This document shows, piece by piece, positions 417-21,559 of a stretch of DNA of 21,559 nt (position 1 is the first letter of the stretch; each line of letters starts with the position of its first letter). The notes below the pieces were generated by a model. The model saw only the letters and a program-made list of their open reading frames with translations, was not told the origin of the DNA and searched no databases. Position numbers and translations under genes: made by a program. The stretch covers positions 1 through 21,559 of the IMG/VR virus record IMGVR_UViG_3300030116_003656, one strand, 5' to 3'. Source of the stretch: a virus.

Positions 417-461
417 ATGACACGTAAGATAACTATCTCCACAGATTACTGCATGCTATAA
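417..461 (+). CDS. Possible 14-codon leader peptide
   Basis: ATG at 417 opens a 14-codon frame (MTRKITISTDYCML) ending in TAA at 459-461. A good Shine-Dalgarno sequence, GGAAGGAG at 397-404, lies upstream, but 12 bases separate it from the ATG, which is long. The same AAGGAG-TTGT leader stands in front of the first genes of two downstream operons (3631-3640 and 6426-6436), which suggests this stretch once led, or still leads, a translated frame. The stop codon overlaps a TATAAT element at 457-462. It may be a leader peptide, a remnant of a lost gene, or chance. Confidence 0.25.
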   Translation: MTRKITISTDYCML

Positions 462-462
462 T
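454..462 (+). promoter_or_regulatory. Extended -10 promoter (TGC-TATAAT)
   Basis: A perfect TATAAT at 457-462 is preceded by TGC at 454-456, giving an extended -10 element that can work without a -35 box. No convincing TTGACA lies 16-18 bases upstream. Initiation would be near 469, just before the two hairpins at 483-550, so it would drive a transcript of about 80 nt. Confidence 0.5.
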
Positions 463-468
463 AGTTGT

Positions 469-550
469 CAAGTCAATTCATTGGTCAGAGGTTTCCTCCT
501 TTACTCTGATCCTTGACACCAGGTCAGTTTACTTCGATCTGGTGTTTTTT
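469..550 (+). ncRNA. Candidate small RNA with anti-Shine-Dalgarno loop
   Basis: Between an extended -10 promoter (454-462) and a strong intrinsic terminator (516-550) lies no open frame with a ribosome site, but a second hairpin is present. GGTCAGAG at 483-490 pairs with CTCTGATCC at 504-512 with one bulged A. The loop between them contains CCTCCTTT (496-503), the same string found in the anti-Shine-Dalgarno tail of 16S rRNA, so it would be complementary to the GGAGG sites in front of many genes here. The predicted transcript is about 80 nt. It could be a trans-acting small RNA, or an attenuated leader for the operon starting at 606. The existence of the transcript is inferred from sequence alone. 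Confidence 0.4.
516..550 (+). terminator. Strong intrinsic terminator
   Basis: ACACCAGGTC at 516-525 pairs with GATCTGGTGT at 536-545 over 10 bp with one G-U pair, around a 10-base loop, followed by TTTTT at 546-550. It separates the leader region from the promoter at 560-588. Confidence 0.85.
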
Positions 551-7455: not shown

Positions 7456-7787
7456 TAATAATATTATCCTTAGTTGCTGCTGCCTGGATTGTTTCAGGAA
7501 TTGCTGCTGATGGATACGCACTGCGCAAACATATCAAAGAATATGGAACGTTTGGAATTGATAACGGTATGGATTTTTTATTGTATAAGCACATAAGAAA
7601 GGTACTAGATTATTGCTACGACACAGAACGAGACCATTACATAGAAAACTATGGAGAAGAATCAAATAATTATTTATGGCTTGATAGTGACTTAGACTTA
7701 CACGTTGAGCAGGAAGACATAAATCATATATTTGTTAGTCTCCATTACTTACATAAGCGATTAGTTCCAGGTGATAGCAATGCCTGA
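7446..7787 (+). CDS. Small protein with N-terminal membrane helix
   Basis: This 113-residue protein starts with ATG at 7446 after AAGGAG at 7435-7440. Residues 3-26 (starting IVIILSLVAAAWIVSGIAA) form one strong hydrophobic helix directly at the N-terminus, either a membrane anchor or an uncleaved signal. There is no clear cleavage site or lipobox. The remaining about 85 residues are acidic and aromatic (DYCYDTERDHYIENYGEE). With few charged residues before the helix the orientation is not obvious. It may modify the host envelope early in infection; no family is recognised. Confidence 0.6.
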   Translation: MEIVIILSLVAAAWIVSGIAADGYALRKHIKEYGTFGIDNGMDFLLYKHIRKVLDYCYDTERDHYIENYGEESNNYLWLDSDLDLHVEQEDINHIFVSLHYLHKRLVPGDSNA

Positions 7788-12605: not shown

Positions 12606-13050
12606 TAGTAGAGAACGTGGCAGAAGAGGTGGAGTAAAGAGACCTGCTGCTGTTAGCGGTCCTGGACGACTTGCAAGAAGAACAGATGGTGCAGCACCTA
12701 GCATAGAAGATGTTAGAGGTATGATTACAGAATCTGCAGGTGAAGAACAAGCACTTGTAGAACAAGTAAGGCAAGGCAATGTAGAACAACCACAAACTAC
12801 ATTTGCAGCACAACCACAACAAGCACCACAACAATTAGGTGGAGTAGAACCTGGATTAGCAGATGTATTTGCACCAGGACAAGATGACCTAAATGCTTAC
12901 ACACGTCCACCAATGGAAGATCAATTCTTAGAACCTGATGATGTTATGTTAATACGTGCAATGGCAGAAGTTAATCCTACTGCAGAACTTTTAGGTTTAC
13001 TAAAGTTTGCTTCTGATAGGCAGATAGGTAGATCGCAGCGTGTTCTCTAA
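12592..13050 (+). CDS. Hypothetical 152-residue late protein with basic N-terminus
   Basis: ATG at 12592 follows GGGAG at 12581-12585. The protein has a basic, low-complexity N-terminus (SSRERGRRGGVKRPAAVSG, then RLARRTD), an acidic helical part (EQALVEQVRQGNVEQ), a Gln/Pro-rich linker (QPQQAPQQLGG) and a helical C-terminus (DDVMLIRAMAEVNPTAELLGLLKFA). Such a disordered, charge-segregated layout fits a head-associated or scaffold-like protein, or an adaptor binding DNA by its basic end. This is inference from composition and position. The stop shares one base with the following giant gene. Confidence 0.6.
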   Translation: MANGSSRERGRRGGVKRPAAVSGPGRLARRTDGAAPSIEDVRGMITESAGEEQALVEQVRQGNVEQPQTTFAAQPQQAPQQLGGVEPGLADVFAPGQDDLNAYTRPPMEDQFLEPDDVMLIRAMAEVNPTAELLGLLKFASDRQIGRSQRVL

Positions 13051-16000
13051 TGGCAGAATTTCATAGAGATAATCCTGCACAAGAGCAAGAGTTTTATCAA
13101 GAAATAATTAAAAGACAAGCAACGTATAAACGTGCTAAACAATCTATAAGTAAAGAGGACGCAGTGCGTGCTTCTGCAATATCACAGGCGTATCCTAACT
13201 TTTCTCCTGATGTAATTACAGCATTAACAACATTACAAGTAAAACCTGAAGCAACAGTCTTAAACGATATATCTAAGATGATTGCACAATCTAACAGTCA
13301 AACAATATTAGATAAAGTATTTGAACCATTGCAAGCAGGTGTACGTCTAGGATTTTTAGGATTAGAAGATTTATATAGAACTACAGTAGATAGACCTATT
13401 AACTCTTTTATTGCTGCTACGTTTGGTGATAAAGCAGAAACACTTACATTTAGTGAAGCATATAGACAGTCAGGTAAATCTACTGTTAAACAACTTATTG
13501 GTGAATTAAACAAAGGTAAGAAAGTTAATTTAGGTGAAGGATTTTTACCACAATCAGAAGTATTTGATCCTGCTAATCCACAGTCAAAGTTTTATGACGA
13601 ATACCAGTACATGATACGTAGTGGTTTTGATGAAGGCAGAGCGCAATCAATTATACAAAATTATCTTGGTACACCAATAACATCTATAGATAGACAAATG
13701 CAAGAAGGTAATGAAAACTTTACAATTACAAGTCAATACGGAACTGCACCAATATCTCTTGGTAGAGCATTAGCATTGCAAGTTGTAGAACCTAACACTA
13801 GAACATTTAATGTTGTGTCAGGTGTATTAGACGCAGGTAAAGCATTATTTTTAGATCCTGCAAATTATTTGTCATTAGGATTAAAAGCATTTACTAAATC
13901 AAAAAAAGCATTAAAGATACCAGATTATTTAGCAAAAGAATTAGAAAAAATAGAACCAGATAAATTAACAAAAGCACAAAAAGAATACATTGGTGCAGTA
14001 AATAAAGGTTGGGGACTGCCTTTTATATCTGGTAGGTCTGTATCTAATTATTTATCTAAAGATCCTGGTGGTAAAAAACTTATAAACTATTTTGCAGAAT
14101 TAGATAGTCCTAATAAATTTATAGAGTTAACAGGTATTACAGATAGAGAAGCTATTGCAGCGTTTATGGATATATCACAAGACTTTACAAAGTCTGCAGC
14201 AGAAAAACAATCTGCTATGAAAAATTTACTAACAGAATTTTTAGAAGATCCTTTTGGTCCATTCGGTACAGGTCAAGCACCAACAGTAGGTGCAATAGGT
14301 AGATTTTTAGGTGGTAGAGCAGAAAATTTACTAGGTGGCGTACCAGAAGGTACAGGCAAATTATTTGGTGCTAAAAAAGTAATTAAAACAAAACTTATGG
14401 ATAGTCCTAATAGATCAGCAAGAATATTGTCTACATACGCAGGTGAGTTTCCATATAGATATGTTGACAGCAACCAGTTAGATGACGCAGTATCTAACAT
14501 AAAAGGTTGGTTAGATCAAACGACTGTTGATCCTATAGCAAAAGATCAAATTATAAACAGAGCTGTAAGACTAGAAGATGGCGATCAAACAGGATTATTT
14601 AACGTTGTAAAAGATATGGTTACATTTGCTACAGATGATTTAGTAGAGAACTATGGTGTAAACAAAGAGGACGCATTTACATTTAGCAGAATTTTTGAAG
14701 ATTACTTACCAGAACTACGTGCATATTTTATAGACGCAGTTACAGGTAACAATGTTGCTAATCCTGGTGCAAAGATAAGTCAAACAATTATTGACAACAA
14801 AGCATTTGTTAATCCTGATCCACACCTGTTAACAGAGTTTATAAATAGAACTATACCTTTACCAGATCCAGGACAACTATCCAGAGCTATGAACTCTATG
14901 TCATTAATTAGAGCTAAAGCGTCAGAAGCAGGAATAGATATGTTTAGTAAATTACCTGCAAATATACGTGCAGGCACAATGTCTAAAATTATAGATAGTT
15001 ACTATTCAGACTTTTGGAAACCGTTTGTATTGTTACGTGGTGCTTGGTTATTACGTGTTGTTGGTGAAGAGCAGCTACGTATGTATACACGTGGTTATGA
15101 CAATATATTTTCAAGACCATTATCTGTATTGTCATTAGGATTACTTAAAAAACCTAATAAGACAGAAGCAGCAAGATGGACAAGCAAAGATGTTAAGTTT
15201 GCAGATTTATTAGGTAATCCATTAGATGAAGCGTTAGAGTGGCAACAAGCTAGTTCACGTAGGTATGGATCAAATAACTTTGACTATTTGTTTGGTGGTG
15301 CATACAAAGCAGGTAGAAGGCGTAAAAAACCTGGTGTACACCCTATGGACGTTGTTACAAAAGAGGACGCATTGCGTAATAGAGAGACACAACCAAGACT
15401 TATACAAAAATATTTTGATGACGGTATTGTACGTGAGATAGCACATTTGCATTATGACAGATTATTTAACTTCTTATTTAGAGGTGCAATGACTAAAAAA
15501 CAAAGAGACGCAAGATTAAAAGAGTTTGTAGAAGGTGATAGCTTACGTGTTAAAGAAATTATAGAAGCATATAGTCAAGGCGGTCCTACATACAGAGCAA
15601 GAATGAATACTGCAGGTGGTAGATATGCCTATGCAGAATCTATTACAGCACGTGTTAATCAGTTAGCAGGTGGATCATTTTCACAAGAACTTGATGTACT
15701 AGATGATTTGTCAAGAAGAATAAACGTAGATGATATAGATTTTGGTAAAACACCATTTCCATTGTCAGTAGAAAAAACAGCTAATAACAATATATTAGAA
15801 ATGTTGTTACGTAACAGATTAAACAGATTAGATGGTAAACAATTTGTTGATGAAACATTAGATGATTTTTTTGACAGCATAAAAAATGGAGATCAAACAA
15901 TATACAGAAATGTTAAAAAGAAATTATTAAGTGATGAGTACATAGATAGCTTACCTAACGTTGTTGCTGTTGGTAAAACAGATTATATAGATAATGTTGG

Positions 16001-18434
16001 TAAATTAGAGTTTTATACAAACAAAGCATTTGACGCATTGATGGGACAGAGAACTGACAATGCTTCACGTTCACCTGTATTTAGACAAGCATATTGGAGA
16101 ACAATATTTGATATGCTTCCGTATATGTCAGGCAAGATGAGACAAGTTATGCTTGAAGGCGGTACATACACAATAGACGGTAAAGAGTTTAAAGTTGCAG
16201 GTGCATTAAATGCAAACCTACCTGGAGAAAACATGATAGCTACTTTTAAAGCTGATCTTGGTTTACCTGCAGAAAAACTACGTAAAGCAGATACAGAAAT
16301 AAACATTGATATGTTTCAACGTAAGATAAAAGAACTTAACGATAGAGATACAGAATTAGGTTTAGGTTTTGAAGATATAGACGAAGAGTTTGAGAATTTA
16401 TCTAACGCACTAAATAAAAAGAAAAAAAGATTACAAGACAAGATGACAGATAAGCAAGAAGAGCTTATGCAACTAGAACTAGACATTACAGGAACTTATG
16501 GATCAGGAGTTACATACGAAGATGATATTGTACCTGCAAATATAAAACAACGTGTTGATGATTTACAAGAAGATATATTTGATCTTGAATCAGAGATAGA
16601 TGATGTACAAGATGTATTTAACAATAACATGAAAGAAAAAGCAGAGTTACTAGGATTTACAGATAAATCTGGTGACGTTGATTTAATTGATAGAATAGCA
16701 AAAGCACGTGCATTAACAGAAGTGCAAGAGCTGTTGTATGATTTAACTAAACGTAAAAAAATTGCATATAACTTACGTGGTATATTTCCATTCGGCGAAG
16801 CATATATAGAGATTATGACTACATGGGCTAAGTTACTAAAAGATAATCCAGAAATATTACGTAGAGGTCAAGTTACTGTTAACGCATTACGTAGAGATAA
16901 TGTCTTTAGTCCTGTACAAGGAGAAGGATTTTTAGGAGAAGATGAAGTTACTGGAGAAGAAGTATTTTATTATCCTATGATTGATGACTTAGTATCTGAC
17001 GCATTGTTTGGCGAAGATAGACAAGTTGGTGTTAGATTGCCTGGTTATGCAGGATCACTTAACTTAGCACTAGAAGTAGTACCAGGCATTGGTCCTGCAG
17101 TTGCTATACCTGCTAGCTTTTTTATAAATGCAAGTCCTAACTTTGATGAAGTTAAAAAGATTATGTTTCCTTATGGTTTACCAGATGTTAGATCTGCTAG
17201 TGACTTAATTGCTGCAGCAGGTGTACCTGCATGGTTAAGAAATACAGTACAAGGTTTATACGCATATAACGAAGATGTAGGTCAAAACGAACTAACACGT
17301 ATTGCTTCTAACACAACTATTGATGTTTACAGAATATTAAAAGCAAATGGTAGTGATGACAGTACAACAGAACGTCAAGAAGAACTTATGAAAGAAGCTA
17401 GAAGTATTGCTAAAAATCTAGCATTTATAAAAGCAGCTTCACAGTTTGTTGGTCCAGTAGGACTAAATCCACGTTTTGACGTAGGTAATGACAAGAATGG
17501 TGGTCATGTTTATTCTATGCAAATACTTGCAGATAGATATAGAGAGTTATTAGAGACACCGCCTAAAGATCCAGAGTCAGGTCAATTCTTATATCCACCT
17601 GGAGATAACTACTATGCAACTAAATATTTTATAGATGAGTTTGGTTTTAATCCACTAGACATAGCTACTCCTAAAACAGTAGTTGTGGAACCAAGACCTG
17701 TAGATGAGCGTGGTGTACAGTTCCAACAAGACAATCCAGAGTTATTTGAGCAATACTCTATAACTGCACAGTATGCAATACCACAAGGCGGCGGTGGTCC
17801 ATTTGATTATGAAGCATACGTTAGAACAATTGCTAGTGAGCAGAGAGAACCATTAAAACCAGAAGAATGGTTGCAAAAACGTAATCAAAGATTAGGACAG
17901 TTTTTTATGGAAGAAAAGCGTGTATCTACATTACAGACATACGATATTACAGATCCATATCAAAACCTAATTAGAGAACGTGAAATGGCATTTTTTAGAG
18001 ATATTGCACGTAGTAAGTTTCCTGGTTTTGATTCTACAATACCTGGACTACCACAAACAGCTACATTAGAAATGCAATATCAAGAACTACAAGATTGGGA
18101 AAAGAATAGAAAACTAGCTACTTCACCTGTAGGTAAAGACCTACGTGTAGTATTTAGCATGATTAATACACTAGAGCAACGTGCGTTAAATAGTGGTTTA
18201 TCTAAGAATGGTTGGAGAACATCTAGGTCAATGCTAAAAGAACGTCAACAATTACGTGACACTATAGGTATGTTGATAAATAAAAATCCAGATTTTCAAT
18301 TAGTAGCTGAAAGAGTGCTGCTTCCATTATTCCAGGAACGTACAGATTTCTTAGAGGATTTGCAATACGATTATGATACACTTAAAGAATACGGTGTATA
18401 CTTACCACAGCTAACTGATACAGAGGATATTTGA
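13050..18434 (+). CDS. Giant 1794-residue virion-type protein, function unknown
   Basis: This is the largest gene of the window, one-quarter of its length, with ATG at 13050 (TAATG overlap). Visible parts include a helical N-terminus with hydrophobic stretches and FLDPANYLSLGLKA (268-281). Then come FWKPFVLLRGAWLLRVVGEEQLRM (split here as residues 655-665 and 666-678) and RSPVFRQAYW (about 1015). A long charged coiled coil spans about 1090-1200, and LRGIFPFGEAYIEIMTTWAKLL about 1240-1265. A Gly/Ala-rich hydrophobic segment (LALEVVPGIGPAVAIPASFF) lies about 1335-1360. The C-terminus has several helical, glutamine-rich repeats of no fixed period. I see no catalytic motif. Large proteins beside the portal in phages are often internal or ejected proteins or multi-domain 'polyvalent' proteins; the membrane-prone segments fit ejection. 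This is a hypothesis, not an identification. Confidence 0.8.
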   Translation: MAEFHRDNPAQEQEFYQEIIKRQATYKRAKQSISKEDAVRASAISQAYPNFSPDVITALTTLQVKPEATVLNDISKMIAQSNSQTILDKVFEPLQAGVRLGFLGLEDLYRTTVDRPINSFIAATFGDKAETLTFSEAYRQSGKSTVKQLIGELNKGKKVNLGEGFLPQSEVFDPANPQSKFYDEYQYMIRSGFDEGRAQSIIQNYLGTPITSIDRQMQEGNENFTITSQYGTAPISLGRALALQVVEPNTRTFNVVSGVLDAGKALFLDPANYLSLGLKAFTKSKKALKIPDYLAKELEKIEPDKLTKAQKEYIGAVNKGWGLPFISGRSVSNYLSKDPGGKKLINYFAELDSPNKFIELTGITDREAIAAFMDISQDFTKSAAEKQSAMKNLLTEFLEDPFGPFGTGQAPTVGAIGRFLGGRAENLLGGVPEGTGKLFGAKKVIKTKLMDSPNRSARILSTYAGEFPYRYVDSNQLDDAVSNIKGWLDQTTVDPIAKDQIINRAVRLEDGDQTGLFNVVKDMVTFATDDLVENYGVNKEDAFTFSRIFEDYLPELRAYFIDAVTGNNVANPGAKISQTIIDNKAFVNPDPHLLTEFINRTIPLPDPGQLSRAMNSMSLIRAKASEAGIDMFSKLPANIRAGTMSKIIDSYYSDFWKPFVLLRGAWLLRVVGEEQLRMYTRGYDNIFSRPLSVLSLGLLKKPNKTEAARWTSKDVKFADLLGNPLDEALEWQQASSRRYGSNNFDYLFGGAYKAGRRRKKPGVHPMDVVTKEDALRNRETQPRLIQKYFDDGIVREIAHLHYDRLFNFLFRGAMTKKQRDARLKEFVEGDSLRVKEIIEAYSQGGPTYRARMNTAGGRYAYAESITARVNQLAGGSFSQELDVLDDLSRRINVDDIDFGKTPFPLSVEKTANNNILEMLLRNRLNRLDGKQFVDETLDDFFDSIKNGDQTIYRNVKKKLLSDEYIDSLPNVVAVGKTDYIDNVGKLEFYTNKAFDALMGQRTDNASRSPVFRQAYWRTIFDMLPYMSGKMRQVMLEGGTYTIDGKEFKVAGALNANLPGENMIATFKADLGLPAEKLRKADTEINIDMFQRKIKELNDRDTELGLGFEDIDEEFENLSNALNKKKKRLQDKMTDKQEELMQLELDITGTYGSGVTYEDDIVPANIKQRVDDLQEDIFDLESEIDDVQDVFNNNMKEKAELLGFTDKSGDVDLIDRIAKARALTEVQELLYDLTKRKKIAYNLRGIFPFGEAYIEIMTTWAKLLKDNPEILRRGQVTVNALRRDNVFSPVQGEGFLGEDEVTGEEVFYYPMIDDLVSDALFGEDRQVGVRLPGYAGSLNLALEVVPGIGPAVAIPASFFINASPNFDEVKKIMFPYGLPDVRSASDLIAAAGVPAWLRNTVQGLYAYNEDVGQNELTRIASNTTIDVYRILKANGSDDSTTERQEELMKEARSIAKNLAFIKAASQFVGPVGLNPRFDVGNDKNGGHVYSMQILADRYRELLETPPKDPESGQFLYPPGDNYYATKYFIDEFGFNPLDIATPKTVVVEPRPVDERGVQFQQDNPELFEQYSITAQYAIPQGGGGPFDYEAYVRTIASEQREPLKPEEWLQKRNQRLGQFFMEEKRVSTLQTYDITDPYQNLIREREMAFFRDIARSKFPGFDSTIPGLPQTATLEMQYQELQDWEKNRKLATSPVGKDLRVVFSMINTLEQRALNSGLSKNGWRTSRSMLKERQQLRDTIGMLINKNPDFQLVAERVLLPLFQERTDFLEDLQYDYDTLKEYGVYLPQLTDTEDI

Positions 18435-20218
18435 TGACAAAAGAGATGAAACAATCTTTGGTGGATAGCATAATACAACAAAATGGTTATGGTCCTGAAG
18501 AGCAAATAACTAAAAATTTATTGTCTTTAGTAAATGAATCTAATGATCAATTATTTATAGCTAAGTTATACAACGAAATAGCTTTATACAATAAAATCCA
18601 GGCAAAGATGTCAGACAACTATGTAGGTTTTTCTTCTGCTTTTCCTGTACAATCACAAGGCGTACCTGCAAGTAAACGTGGACAAGCTGCAGTTAATCCT
18701 GCATTAACAAACATAAACATTGCAATGGAAAACACAAATCCTGAATGGAGAACAGATGTAGCTATTGTTAAAGATTTTTATAGAGGATTAGATGTTGCTA
18801 CTGGTATAAAAGGACCAGAAGGTTCTGACAATGCAAAAGCATATTACGATTATTTAAATACAAAACTAAATCAGTTAGTAGAGGAGACAGGATTACTAGG
18901 AGTTGTTATACGTCCACCACGTGGTGAAGGCGGTACAATTTACATGTCAGAAGATTTAGATGAGTGGTTTAGAAATAACACACCTATGGATATGACAGAA
19001 GGTTTTTATCCTGCAGAAGGTAAATCATACAGAAAATATCCAGGATTTGCCAAACCTACAATTATAACAAAACCAGTTATGACATTTAATGAAGAATCTG
19101 GATACTGGGAACATACAGGTGAATATCTTAAAGGTGCAGAATCATTTAACAGTGATGGTAAATTTAACACAGGTTTAGATACTGGTGATACATTCCAGGT
19201 AGCTGTTGGTACAAAAAAACCAGACGGTACATCTGTAGGTGAAGTACAAACACTTAGTTATGATGAGTACAAATTTTTAGAACAAGAAATAGCAGAAGAT
19301 CCAAGTAGTCAAATTATTAATGTATCTGGTGACAAAGCACAAGTGCAAGCACAGTTAGATCAATGGGTTGATTACAATACATCTGTTGCAGCAGCGCCAG
19401 AGTATTCTATATTTGGTGGTATAACACCTGACTATGCAATCTACAAACAACCAGATCTTGCTAACGCATTTAAAGATGGTGATCCTACTGCAGCACAAAT
19501 GAAAGACGCAATGTTACCTGAACAAGTATATGCAGGTAGTATTCCAGAAGAACAGTTTTATGGTGGTTTTGATCATATTTCTGGTCAAGGTCCAGGACTT
19601 AACAACTCACAAAAAATATCTTGGATTTCATTAGCACCACAAGAAATTAAAGCAATACAAACAGATCTTATGCAAGCAGGTTATTTAGATCCTGAATCAT
19701 ATTTTTTAGAGCAGGGTGCATGGCAAGATAAAACAGCAACAGCTATGGCTACAGCTATGACTGACGCTAACTTAAATATGACAGATGTGTATTCACAATT
19801 AACTGCAGAAAAAGAACGTTACTTTACTAAACCACCGTTGTTGCCTAAAGTATATCAACAACCATCTCCAGAGTTTGTTAAATCACAAGTTGACGCAGCA
19901 CTTAAATCTGCAGGTGTCACACGTAAACTTACAGACGCAGAACTTGTAGCGTTTTCTGATTACTACATACAAGCAGATAAAGATTACGAAACTGCAAATG
20001 CAGAGTATCAAAAGAATTTAGATTTAGCTAATAGATTATTTCCTGGTGCGCCATCAGAAATTATGATACCTTCTACACCAGGCGAAGAATTAGCAGCATT
20101 TGCTGAACAAGCATTTGAACCACAAGAAGCAGCACAACAGAGAGGTATACAAGAACGTAACGATCTAAGTTATTTGTTTAGTTCTATAGATCAATTTGAC
20201 CGTATGATTGGAGGATAA
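18434..20218 (+). CDS. Large virion-type protein with peptidoglycan-binding-like segment
   Basis: ATG at 18434 overlaps the previous stop (TGATG). The 594-residue protein is acidic and mostly soluble. A helical N-terminus (residues 1-60) is followed by a long middle part with beta character. Around residues 398-447 the sequence APQEIKAIQTDLMQAGYLDP, followed by GAWQDKTATAMATAM, fits the three-helix peptidoglycan-binding fold (Q-x-x-L-x-x-A-G-Y ... G-x-W-x-x-x-T-x-x-A). The C-terminal part (after about 480) is helical and Ala/Glu-rich. No lysozyme or amidase motif is seen. In a virion protein such a segment could touch the cell wall at entry, or act as a structural repeat. It shares its operon and junction style with the giant gene upstream, so the two products probably act in the same particle. 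Confidence 0.75.
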   Translation: MTKEMKQSLVDSIIQQNGYGPEEQITKNLLSLVNESNDQLFIAKLYNEIALYNKIQAKMSDNYVGFSSAFPVQSQGVPASKRGQAAVNPALTNINIAMENTNPEWRTDVAIVKDFYRGLDVATGIKGPEGSDNAKAYYDYLNTKLNQLVEETGLLGVVIRPPRGEGGTIYMSEDLDEWFRNNTPMDMTEGFYPAEGKSYRKYPGFAKPTIITKPVMTFNEESGYWEHTGEYLKGAESFNSDGKFNTGLDTGDTFQVAVGTKKPDGTSVGEVQTLSYDEYKFLEQEIAEDPSSQIINVSGDKAQVQAQLDQWVDYNTSVAAAPEYSIFGGITPDYAIYKQPDLANAFKDGDPTAAQMKDAMLPEQVYAGSIPEEQFYGGFDHISGQGPGLNNSQKISWISLAPQEIKAIQTDLMQAGYLDPESYFLEQGAWQDKTATAMATAMTDANLNMTDVYSQLTAEKERYFTKPPLLPKVYQQPSPEFVKSQVDAALKSAGVTRKLTDAELVAFSDYYIQADKDYETANAEYQKNLDLANRLFPGAPSEIMIPSTPGEELAAFAEQAFEPQEAAQQRGIQERNDLSYLFSSIDQFDRMIGG

Positions 20219-21559
20219 TGGATCCTGATGATTTAGTTCCAGACGATCCAAGCGAATTGTTTAAAGATCCTGCTTCAGAAAATATGACAGGTGCTATGGA
20301 AAGTTTATCTGCTGCATTGCCAGAAGATTTATCAGATGTTGATTTATCTGACGAGGATAAAGCAATGATAGAAAATTTTAGAAAAAATAAAAAAGAATTT
20401 GAAGCTATAACAAATCCAGTAAGTAGTTTAGAAGATGATGTAGCAGAAGTAAACAATGACTTTGTATACAAGAAGTTTGCAGAAAAACAAAACACTGCAG
20501 ACAATGTTATATTTAAAGAATTAGAAGACGGCACAGTAGAACTACTCGTAATTAAACGTAAACGTGGACCACATAGATCTTTGTTTGCTTTACCTGGTGG
20601 AATAGTAGAAGGTGAGATACCTGTAGAAATTTTAGTAAAAGGTGTAGTAGATCCTGGCGGTTCTATAAATTTTCAACCGCATGAATTATTTATGGCTTTT
20701 AATGAAGATAAAGTATTAGCTAATCCTGCTTTGAAAAGAGCAAATGAAATATTTGGAGTAGAAGCATTAAGAGAAGCAATAGAAGAAGTAAATCTTAGAA
20801 AACGTTTTATAAAAAATAGTTTTTATTTACCAGTTAAATTTAATCGTTTAGATTGGGACGCACGTGCAGCACAAGGTGTAAACGTAGGTGGTATGGGAAT
20901 AATTATTAAAGACGTTATAGAAGCTGATGTAGTAGACGGTAGACCAGTAAGTAATGTAATAGAATCATGGGTACCTAAAGCAGCAGATGACGCTTTATCT
21001 TATGAGTGGATAAAACTAGATGATGTTATAAGTGGCGAAAAACAATTAGCTTTTGGTCATGTAGAGTTTGTTAAAGACGCATTGTACACATCACTTAAAA
21101 AAGAATTATTTGAAAAATCTAATCAGGCACAAATAACTAAAGGTATAGCTATATATGATTATGAAGATATAACACAGTTAGATAACCGTATATACGAAAC
21201 ATCAAAAAGAAATGTAGAAATAATAAAAGCTAGCAATAAAGTACGTACAAAAATGGGAGAACCACTTATACCTATAGAAGGTAATAATTTAGTTGACCGT
21301 AAAAATCAAGCAATGATCGACAGCATTAGAGGACTAAGGTCTTATACAAGTAATAGTCCTGACGCAATTAAATTTACAGCACAAATGCAAATGAGTCCTG
21401 ATTTTATATTTATAGATTTATTTAATGAGTTGTCAGAAGATTCACTGTATATGTTAGACAATTTAGAATTATCAGATTTACAAATTAATACATACGAAGG
21501 AGATGATAGAACTACAAAATTAGCAAACATAAAAAGTAAAAATAAAGTAAAAACAGAAA
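20218..21559 (+). CDS. Nudix-domain protein with split Nudix box (cut by window end)
   Basis: ATG at 20218 overlaps the previous stop (TAATG) after GGAGG at 20210-20214, and the frame stays open to the window end (447 residues visible). An acidic helical N-terminus (1-75) precedes a Nudix domain at about 79-292. The box is recognisable as PGGIVEGE (126-133; Gx5E) and REAIEEVNL (185-193; REx2EE), the metal-binding helix. Instead of the usual seven residues, 51 separate the two halves, and the usual Gly after EE is Asn. The tail of the domain (YEWIKLDDV, then FGHVEFVKDAL) is normal for the family. Nudix enzymes cleave nucleoside diphosphates linked to another group, such as ADP-ribose, NAD(H), NTPs or RNA caps. 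The part after residue 300 is unrecognised. A Nudix domain inside a large late-operon protein is unusual. Confidence 0.75.
   Translation, partial: MDPDDLVPDDPSELFKDPASENMTGAMESLSAALPEDLSDVDLSDEDKAMIENFRKNKKEFEAITNPVSSLEDDVAEVNNDFVYKKFAEKQNTADNVIFKELEDGTVELLVIKRKRGPHRSLFALPGGIVEGEIPVEILVKGVVDPGGSINFQPHELFMAFNEDKVLANPALKRANEIFGVEALREAIEEVNLRKRFIKNSFYLPVKFNRLDWDARAAQGVNVGGMGIIIKDVIEADVVDGRPVSNVIESWVPKAADDALSYEWIKLDDVISGEKQLAFGHVEFVKDALYTSLKKELFEKSNQAQITKGIAIYDYEDITQLDNRIYETSKRNVEIIKASNKVRTKMGEPLIPIEGNNLVDRKNQAMIDSIRGLRSYTSNSPDAIKFTAQMQMSPDFIFIDLFNELSEDSLYMLDNLELSDLQINTYEGDDRTTKLANIKSKNKVKTE

Follow-up and report, generated by a model that had tools for sequence, protein, structure and literature searches.

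The most probable explanation of the intergenic element described here, with a probability of roughly two in three, is that it is a phage gene for a trans-acting small RNA (sRNA) of about 80 nucleotides (nt), whose hairpin loop pairs with Shine-Dalgarno (SD) sites. The DNA analysed (the window, meaning the whole stretch of 21,559 nucleotides) is a 21.6-kb phage fragment with a GC content of 36%, and the relatives that carry the sRNA form a family of marine bacterial viruses. In this family the loop is conserved, the structure is kept through covariation of its stems, and the unit is autonomous within the genome.

The unit begins with an extended -10 promoter element, TGC-TATAAT, at positions 454-462 of the + strand, exactly as claimed in the first-pass annotation of this DNA. 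Promoters of the extended -10 class work without a -35 element; a simple promoter scan did not list the one at 454-462, because a good -35 sequence is absent. The predicted sRNA would start at 469, 7 nt past the -10 element, and end at 550 on the + strand. Its first structure is an anti-SD hairpin (483-511, + strand), with an 8-bp covarying stem (GGTCAGAG at 483-490 and CTCTGATC at 504-511) and a 13-nt loop, GUUUCCUCCUUUA (DNA GTTTCCTCCTTTA, 491-503), which together with the closing bases G490 and C504 makes up 15 invariant bases. The loop contains CCTCCTTT, which occurs only once in the window; the hairpin with this anti-SD string had been recognized before, and only its location, given as 496-503, needs to be shifted one base to the left, to 495-502. 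An intrinsic terminator follows at 516-550 (+ strand), again as annotated, with a 10-bp stem (ACACCAGGTC at 516-525 and GATCTGGTGT at 536-545) and six T residues (545-550). The sRNA thus consists of one hairpin plus terminator, with one CCTCC site, and in agreement with the earlier statement that no ribosome site or useful frame lies between promoter and terminator, no SD sequence plus frame was found inside it. A search for tRNA and tmRNA genes returned none.

The region 468-560 folds at -26.8 kcal/mol (z -3.7, with no shuffle equally good), leaving the 13-nt loop open. Among 36 distinct predicted RNAs, the loop is fully open in the minimum free energy structure of 25 and not fully open in 11. 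Folded alone, the 32-nt hairpin is unexceptional (z -1.0), and CCTCCTTT appears in 83 of 20,000 mononucleotide shuffles of 358-605 (0.4%), so that the sequence of the window by itself proves little. Pairing of the RNA 5' end with the linker (TGTCAAG/CTTGACA) to form a basal stem was considered and rejected, being no better at -6.2 kcal/mol than swapped linkers at -5.9 kcal/mol.

The relatives were fetched through neighbouring proteins only (the exonuclease and the downstream 78-aa protein), and so the loop itself did not select the loci. The 13-nt core is present without mismatch in all 72 exonuclease-fetched loci with enough downstream sequence (one further locus, which ends 127 nt past the gene, was left out). 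Likewise, the 15-mer GGTTTCCTCCTTTAC is exact in 79 of 79 loci fetched by the downstream protein, whose versions are 40-100% identical to the query; the two sets overlap, and many contigs are common to both. Column identity drops from 1.00 in the invariant block to about 0.5-0.7 directly outside it. All 47 distinct units have a TGNTA-type -10 element, at a distance of 27-38 nt on the 5' side of the invariant loop string. The comparison of loop and stem in relatives had been proposed as a check at first pass, and its outcome, a loop that never varies (79/79; 72/72) on a stem found in at least 16 versions among the 79 loci, with compensatory and G-U changes, supports the original suggestion of a phage sRNA of about 80 nt with an anti-SD loop.

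Covariation was tested with 19 units picked for diversity (18 distinct). In the 8-bp stem, 91% of cells are paired. Double-change cells number 40, compared with 14 in shuffles (none of 500 shuffles was as high), and six of the eight pairs show double changes. The covariation score is 0.775, and sliding the partner strand lowers it to at most 0.19. All of G-C, A-U, C-G, U-A and G-U occur as pair types, and pair 6-32 alone is found as GU in 7 units, AU in 6 and GC in 5; these wobble and mixed pairs argue for a constraint at the RNA level. Both the hairpin and the terminator are recovered by RNAalifold, with double changes in 13 of 16 predicted pairs. The terminator stem also covaries, and in other clades it has been swapped for unrelated sequences.

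In the proposed mechanism, the extended -10 promoter would produce an sRNA of about 80 nt that ends at the intrinsic terminator, and the first hairpin would hold open the 13-nt loop, a copy of the anti-SD 3' end of 16S rRNA with flanking bases. The loop could then pair with ribosome-binding sites (RBSs) of the type UAAAGGAGG-AAAC-AUG and exclude the 30S subunit. The core of the 16S tail, CCUCCUUU, lies within the loop, whose complement, UAAAGGAGGAAAC, resembles a strong ribosome site with an A-rich spacer. The GGAGG sites of the phage tend to have A at the following positions, as the loop complement does. Silencing of mRNAs at the RBS is the presumed action because open loops of this kind are the active part of NfeR1 and B11/6C (see below).

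Strong SD sites had been noted earlier before 1288, 2220 and 4472. The string GGAGGAGG is indeed found before 1288 and 4472, and the one before the ATG at 2220 is GGGAGGAG. Of the non-self sites on the sense strand of the window, the RBS at 1288 (GGAGGAGGATAACGAC), which belongs to a 252-aa gene (phrog_11717, 1288-2046), pairs most strongly with the loop (-21.2 kcal/mol at 20 C). This RBS is a strong partner in relatives near the window and a weak one in other clades, and no phage RBS is a strong partner family-wide. Since the strongest phage pairing is lost in part of the family, a host RNA is probably the target that matters most; more generally, a loop that stays constant while phage sites change suggests that selection acts through host mRNAs, or through both host and phage mRNAs whose sites come close to the consensus. 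The GGAGG-rich early phage genes might be secondary targets. RBSs of early genes pair more strongly than those of late genes in one genome (G002; p 0.016), a difference that is not significant in the window and in a further genome (G004), and GGAGG or AGGAG sites precede 11 of 20 early genes compared with 9 of 34 late genes in one genome.

Canonical anti-SD pairing takes only 5-8 nt, and the 13-15 invariant nt of the loop therefore may indicate that a more specific partner is bound. A minority possibility that deserves to be taken seriously is that the loop pairs over its full length with a single, strongly conserved host RNA, and that the likeness to 16S rRNA simply follows from the site in that target. 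The excess of invariant positions over those needed for SD pairing fits such a partner, as does the lack of any phage site that serves as a universal partner. However, no such host site is known, and the loop complement resembles a consensus RBS with A-rich flanks, which a general blocker of RBSs would need as well. It is conceivable, if doubtful, that the loop acts more globally, as a mimic of the 16S tail that reprograms translation in the whole cell. Such an sRNA would be timed and would cover consensus sites, so that ribosomes would shift from host and early messages to late phage messages with weaker sites.

The early-gene block begins with the gene for the 78-aa protein (606-842, + strand), which lies 3' of the intergenic sRNA unit and adjoins it in every locus found. 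This constant adjacency, along with the absolute invariance of the entire loop, is what might be expected if the loop were a protein decoy, directed, for example, at a protein that normally touches the 3' tail of 16S rRNA (a ribosomal protein or an initiation factor), or at the 78-aa protein itself. We regard a decoy as improbable. The 78-aa protein matches no recognized RNA-binding family (no match in Pfam, PHROG or NCBIfam), and its AF2 model, helix-strand-strand-helix-strand-strand and of medium confidence (pLDDT 73), matched no fold in the PDB at E <= 0.001. In addition, the anti-SD loops of known relatives, which are single-stranded, act through base pairing.

The sRNA is encoded where the lysis/exonuclease block gives way to the early block. 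On the upstream side, the exonuclease gene (phrog_284) ends ahead of a terminator-like hairpin (361-384, + strand), which sets the sRNA unit apart from the upstream operon; a hairpin of variable sequence is found at this site in the relatives listed. The interval from this terminator to the sRNA promoter contains a companion element at 396-433 of the + strand, made up of GGGAAGGAG and, after it, a hairpin (GTTGTCTT/AAGATAAC). It precedes the sRNA unit in the relatives listed, inverted units included, with GGAAGGAG in most of them, AAGGAG or GGAGG in a few, and a hairpin of changing sequence. In the genomes checked, other promoters are not preceded by copies of the companion element. In two relatives (L204/L224) it reads GGAGGTGAGCC-ATG-TAA, a start codon followed at once by a stop. 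The position at a block boundary and the hairpin shape would suit a DNA-level element, either a replication signal or a single-stranded DNA hairpin, but there is very little chance that this accounts for the unit. Stem pairing is maintained via G-U, and every unit has an extended -10 upstream and an in-register terminator downstream, the stem of the latter covarying.

The first-pass annotation had also offered the alternative of a leader role with attenuation of the downstream operon, which would amount to control in cis by a 5' leader. The next gene, which has a GGGAGG site, does begin 55 nt downstream of the unit, and a terminator is located there. Nevertheless, both in L032/L033 and in L113/L126 the same two genes enclose the complete unit, companion element too, on the opposite strand. 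Of the 79 protein-fetched loci, 75 carry the unit in the orientation of the genes and 4, from two clades, carry it against them, which refutes a leader for the inverted clades. The unit has its own terminator, a separate and conserved promoter-like sequence for the downstream gene (TTTACG-17-TATACT, 560-588, + strand) follows that terminator, and the distance to the gene varies. A leader is accordingly hardly credible for the family as a whole. Given the inversions between the same genes and the separate promoter-like sequence downstream, the unit is, as judged from its sequence context, a free-standing transcription unit and a gene of its own rather than a leader or attenuator.

The coding reading of the same stretch (TTG GTC AGA GGT TTC CTC CTT TAC...) was rejected because the TTG is missing in several relatives and all codon positions are constant in the loop. 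The reading of the minus strand, in which a GGAGG loop would serve as bait for CsrA, was likewise set aside, the promoter and the terminator T run being on the + strand of the unit. Finally, a chance likeness with no function, compatible with the 0.4% of shuffled regions in which CCTCCTTT arises, is already refuted by the family-wide conservation and covariation.

The neighbourhood of the sRNA has undergone mosaic exchange. A second lineage (L069, L080, L112, L115 and L139) has another version of the exonuclease, only 34% identical, and a downstream protein that is 56% identical, and the sRNA and early block stay. Compared with L068, the lysis and exonuclease genes of these phages have been mosaically replaced, with the sRNA and early block still in place. 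When 80 loci were fetched with an alignment led by the second exonuclease version, the sRNA was found in 5, all of the second lineage; the other 75 have a different neighbourhood and no sRNA next door. The sRNA is lacking in related phages with a different next-door region whose exonuclease shares 80-85% identity with the lineage B version. Among 12 whole records, all five tested from sRNA-bearing lineages have one copy each, and the other seven gave no convincing match. At the far end of the window, a 1794-aa structural-region protein (13050-18434) has counterparts of similar size in the corresponding position of related phages, and a weak match to NUDIX hydrolase (phrog_1198) falls within a long structural-region protein (20218-21558).

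Among named phages, exonuclease homologues come almost entirely from actinobacteriophages (809 records; Mycobacterium, Propionibacterium, Streptomyces and Gordonia), and 29 of 39 terminase matches are to Streptomyces phages. Phages of 'Ca. Actinomarinales' have been reported with 33-37% GC (PMC7771536). The host is thus probably a low-GC marine actinobacterium, perhaps of the 'Ca. Actinomarinales'.

Outside the family, a scan of GTDB genomes with the exonuclease and the sRNA found no relative. The pattern TATAAT-N18-48-GGTTTCCTCCTTTAC has 4 matches in 84,980 prokaryote species genomes, about the number expected by chance, and a matching hairpin is present in none of the four. The same 13-nt loop is found in unrelated large phages (L442 at 7613-7641, L429 and L419; contigs of 158-190 kb), where CTGAGCAG-GTTTCCTCCTTTA-CTGCTCAG-TTTTT forms a terminator-like hairpin with an 8-bp stem and a T run. 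In a GC-rich phage (L111) it also caps an 11-bp hairpin, which is on the minus strand at about 1558-1593 and immediately precedes the start of a gene. With a measured background of 2.2e-4 hairpins of at least 8 bp per position, about 0.013 same-loop hairpins would be expected among the 61 contexts that lack an extended -10, and two were seen. That the same loop caps hairpins in two unrelated phages is suggestive of a recurring module.

Little is known about the small RNAs of lytic phages, and most of the known examples are single cases. Here a whole family of marine-phage sRNAs has a 15-nt invariant core and strong covariation, which makes it findable by computer, nameable and testable. If the sRNA does block ribosome sites, these phages would be turning the logic of bacterial anti-SD sRNAs against their hosts, and the invariant loop would provide a ready seed for target searches.

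The closest parallels are bacterial. NfeR1 has an ultraconserved anti-SD motif in unpaired regions of hairpins with differing stems, and silences mRNAs at the RBS (PMC10746234). The phage sRNA resembles NfeR1 and the alpha-r14 group (cuckoo RNAs, CcsR; alphaproteobacteria) in being a stand-alone sRNA whose anti-SD motif is unpaired while the stems diverge. However, NfeR1 is a 123-nt bacterial RNA from a different phylum, without sequence match, and carries the motif CCUCCUCCC in three hairpins, whereas the phage sRNA of about 80 nt has a single GUUUCCUCCUUUA loop; the alpha-r14/cuckoo motif CCUCCUCCC is absent from the predicted sRNA, as is the plan of several motif hairpins. The B11/6C RNAs of mycobacteria and other actinobacteria use pyrimidine-rich loops to pair with G-rich RBSs (PMC10470900), and the phage sRNA shares with them the pyrimidine-rich loop and, probably, an actinobacterial setting. 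B11/6C has two loops with C runs, in contrast to one loop without CCCC in the phage sRNA, and an Rfam scan of the window did not report 6C. At gathering and relaxed thresholds, Rfam gave no family above threshold; NsiR1 and Ocean-VII were far below the cut-off, the NsiR1 (RF02399) score of 18.9 bits, against a gathering threshold of 39, coming mainly from the terminator part. Cyanobacterial Yfr1 (54-69 nt) has a terminator hairpin and a perfectly conserved, unpaired undecamer containing CUCCU (PMC2190773). The Yfr1 motif, ACUCCUCACAC, is located between two hairpins rather than in a loop, is encoded in a cyanobacterial chromosome, and is absent from the phage sRNA.

Among phage RNAs, a review of phage sRNAs describes the phage-encoded c4 RNA of P1/P7, which pairs with RBS regions, and shows no anti-SD-loop family in its passages on ribosome sites and loops (PMC12197685). 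The c4 RNA is dedicated to one phage target, the ant mRNA, whereas the sRNA analysed here is an independent unit with a generic anti-SD loop. Mycobacteriophages L5, D29 and StarStuff make abundant non-coding RNAs of unknown function during lytic growth (PMC5712189); the best described of these is about 500 nt long, lies at a genome end and lacks a canonical terminator, and no anti-SD hairpin is described. The phage unit has the traits of the anti-SD sRNA class, namely promoter and terminator sequence elements in all units, free orientation and a conserved single-stranded seed. To our knowledge, no phage sRNA family of this design has been known. The sRNA probably functions like an anti-SD sRNA, in the way of NfeR1/alpha-r14 and mycobacterial B11/6C; because the defining motifs of alpha-r14/cuckoo, 6C and Yfr1 are absent, it belongs to none of these three families.
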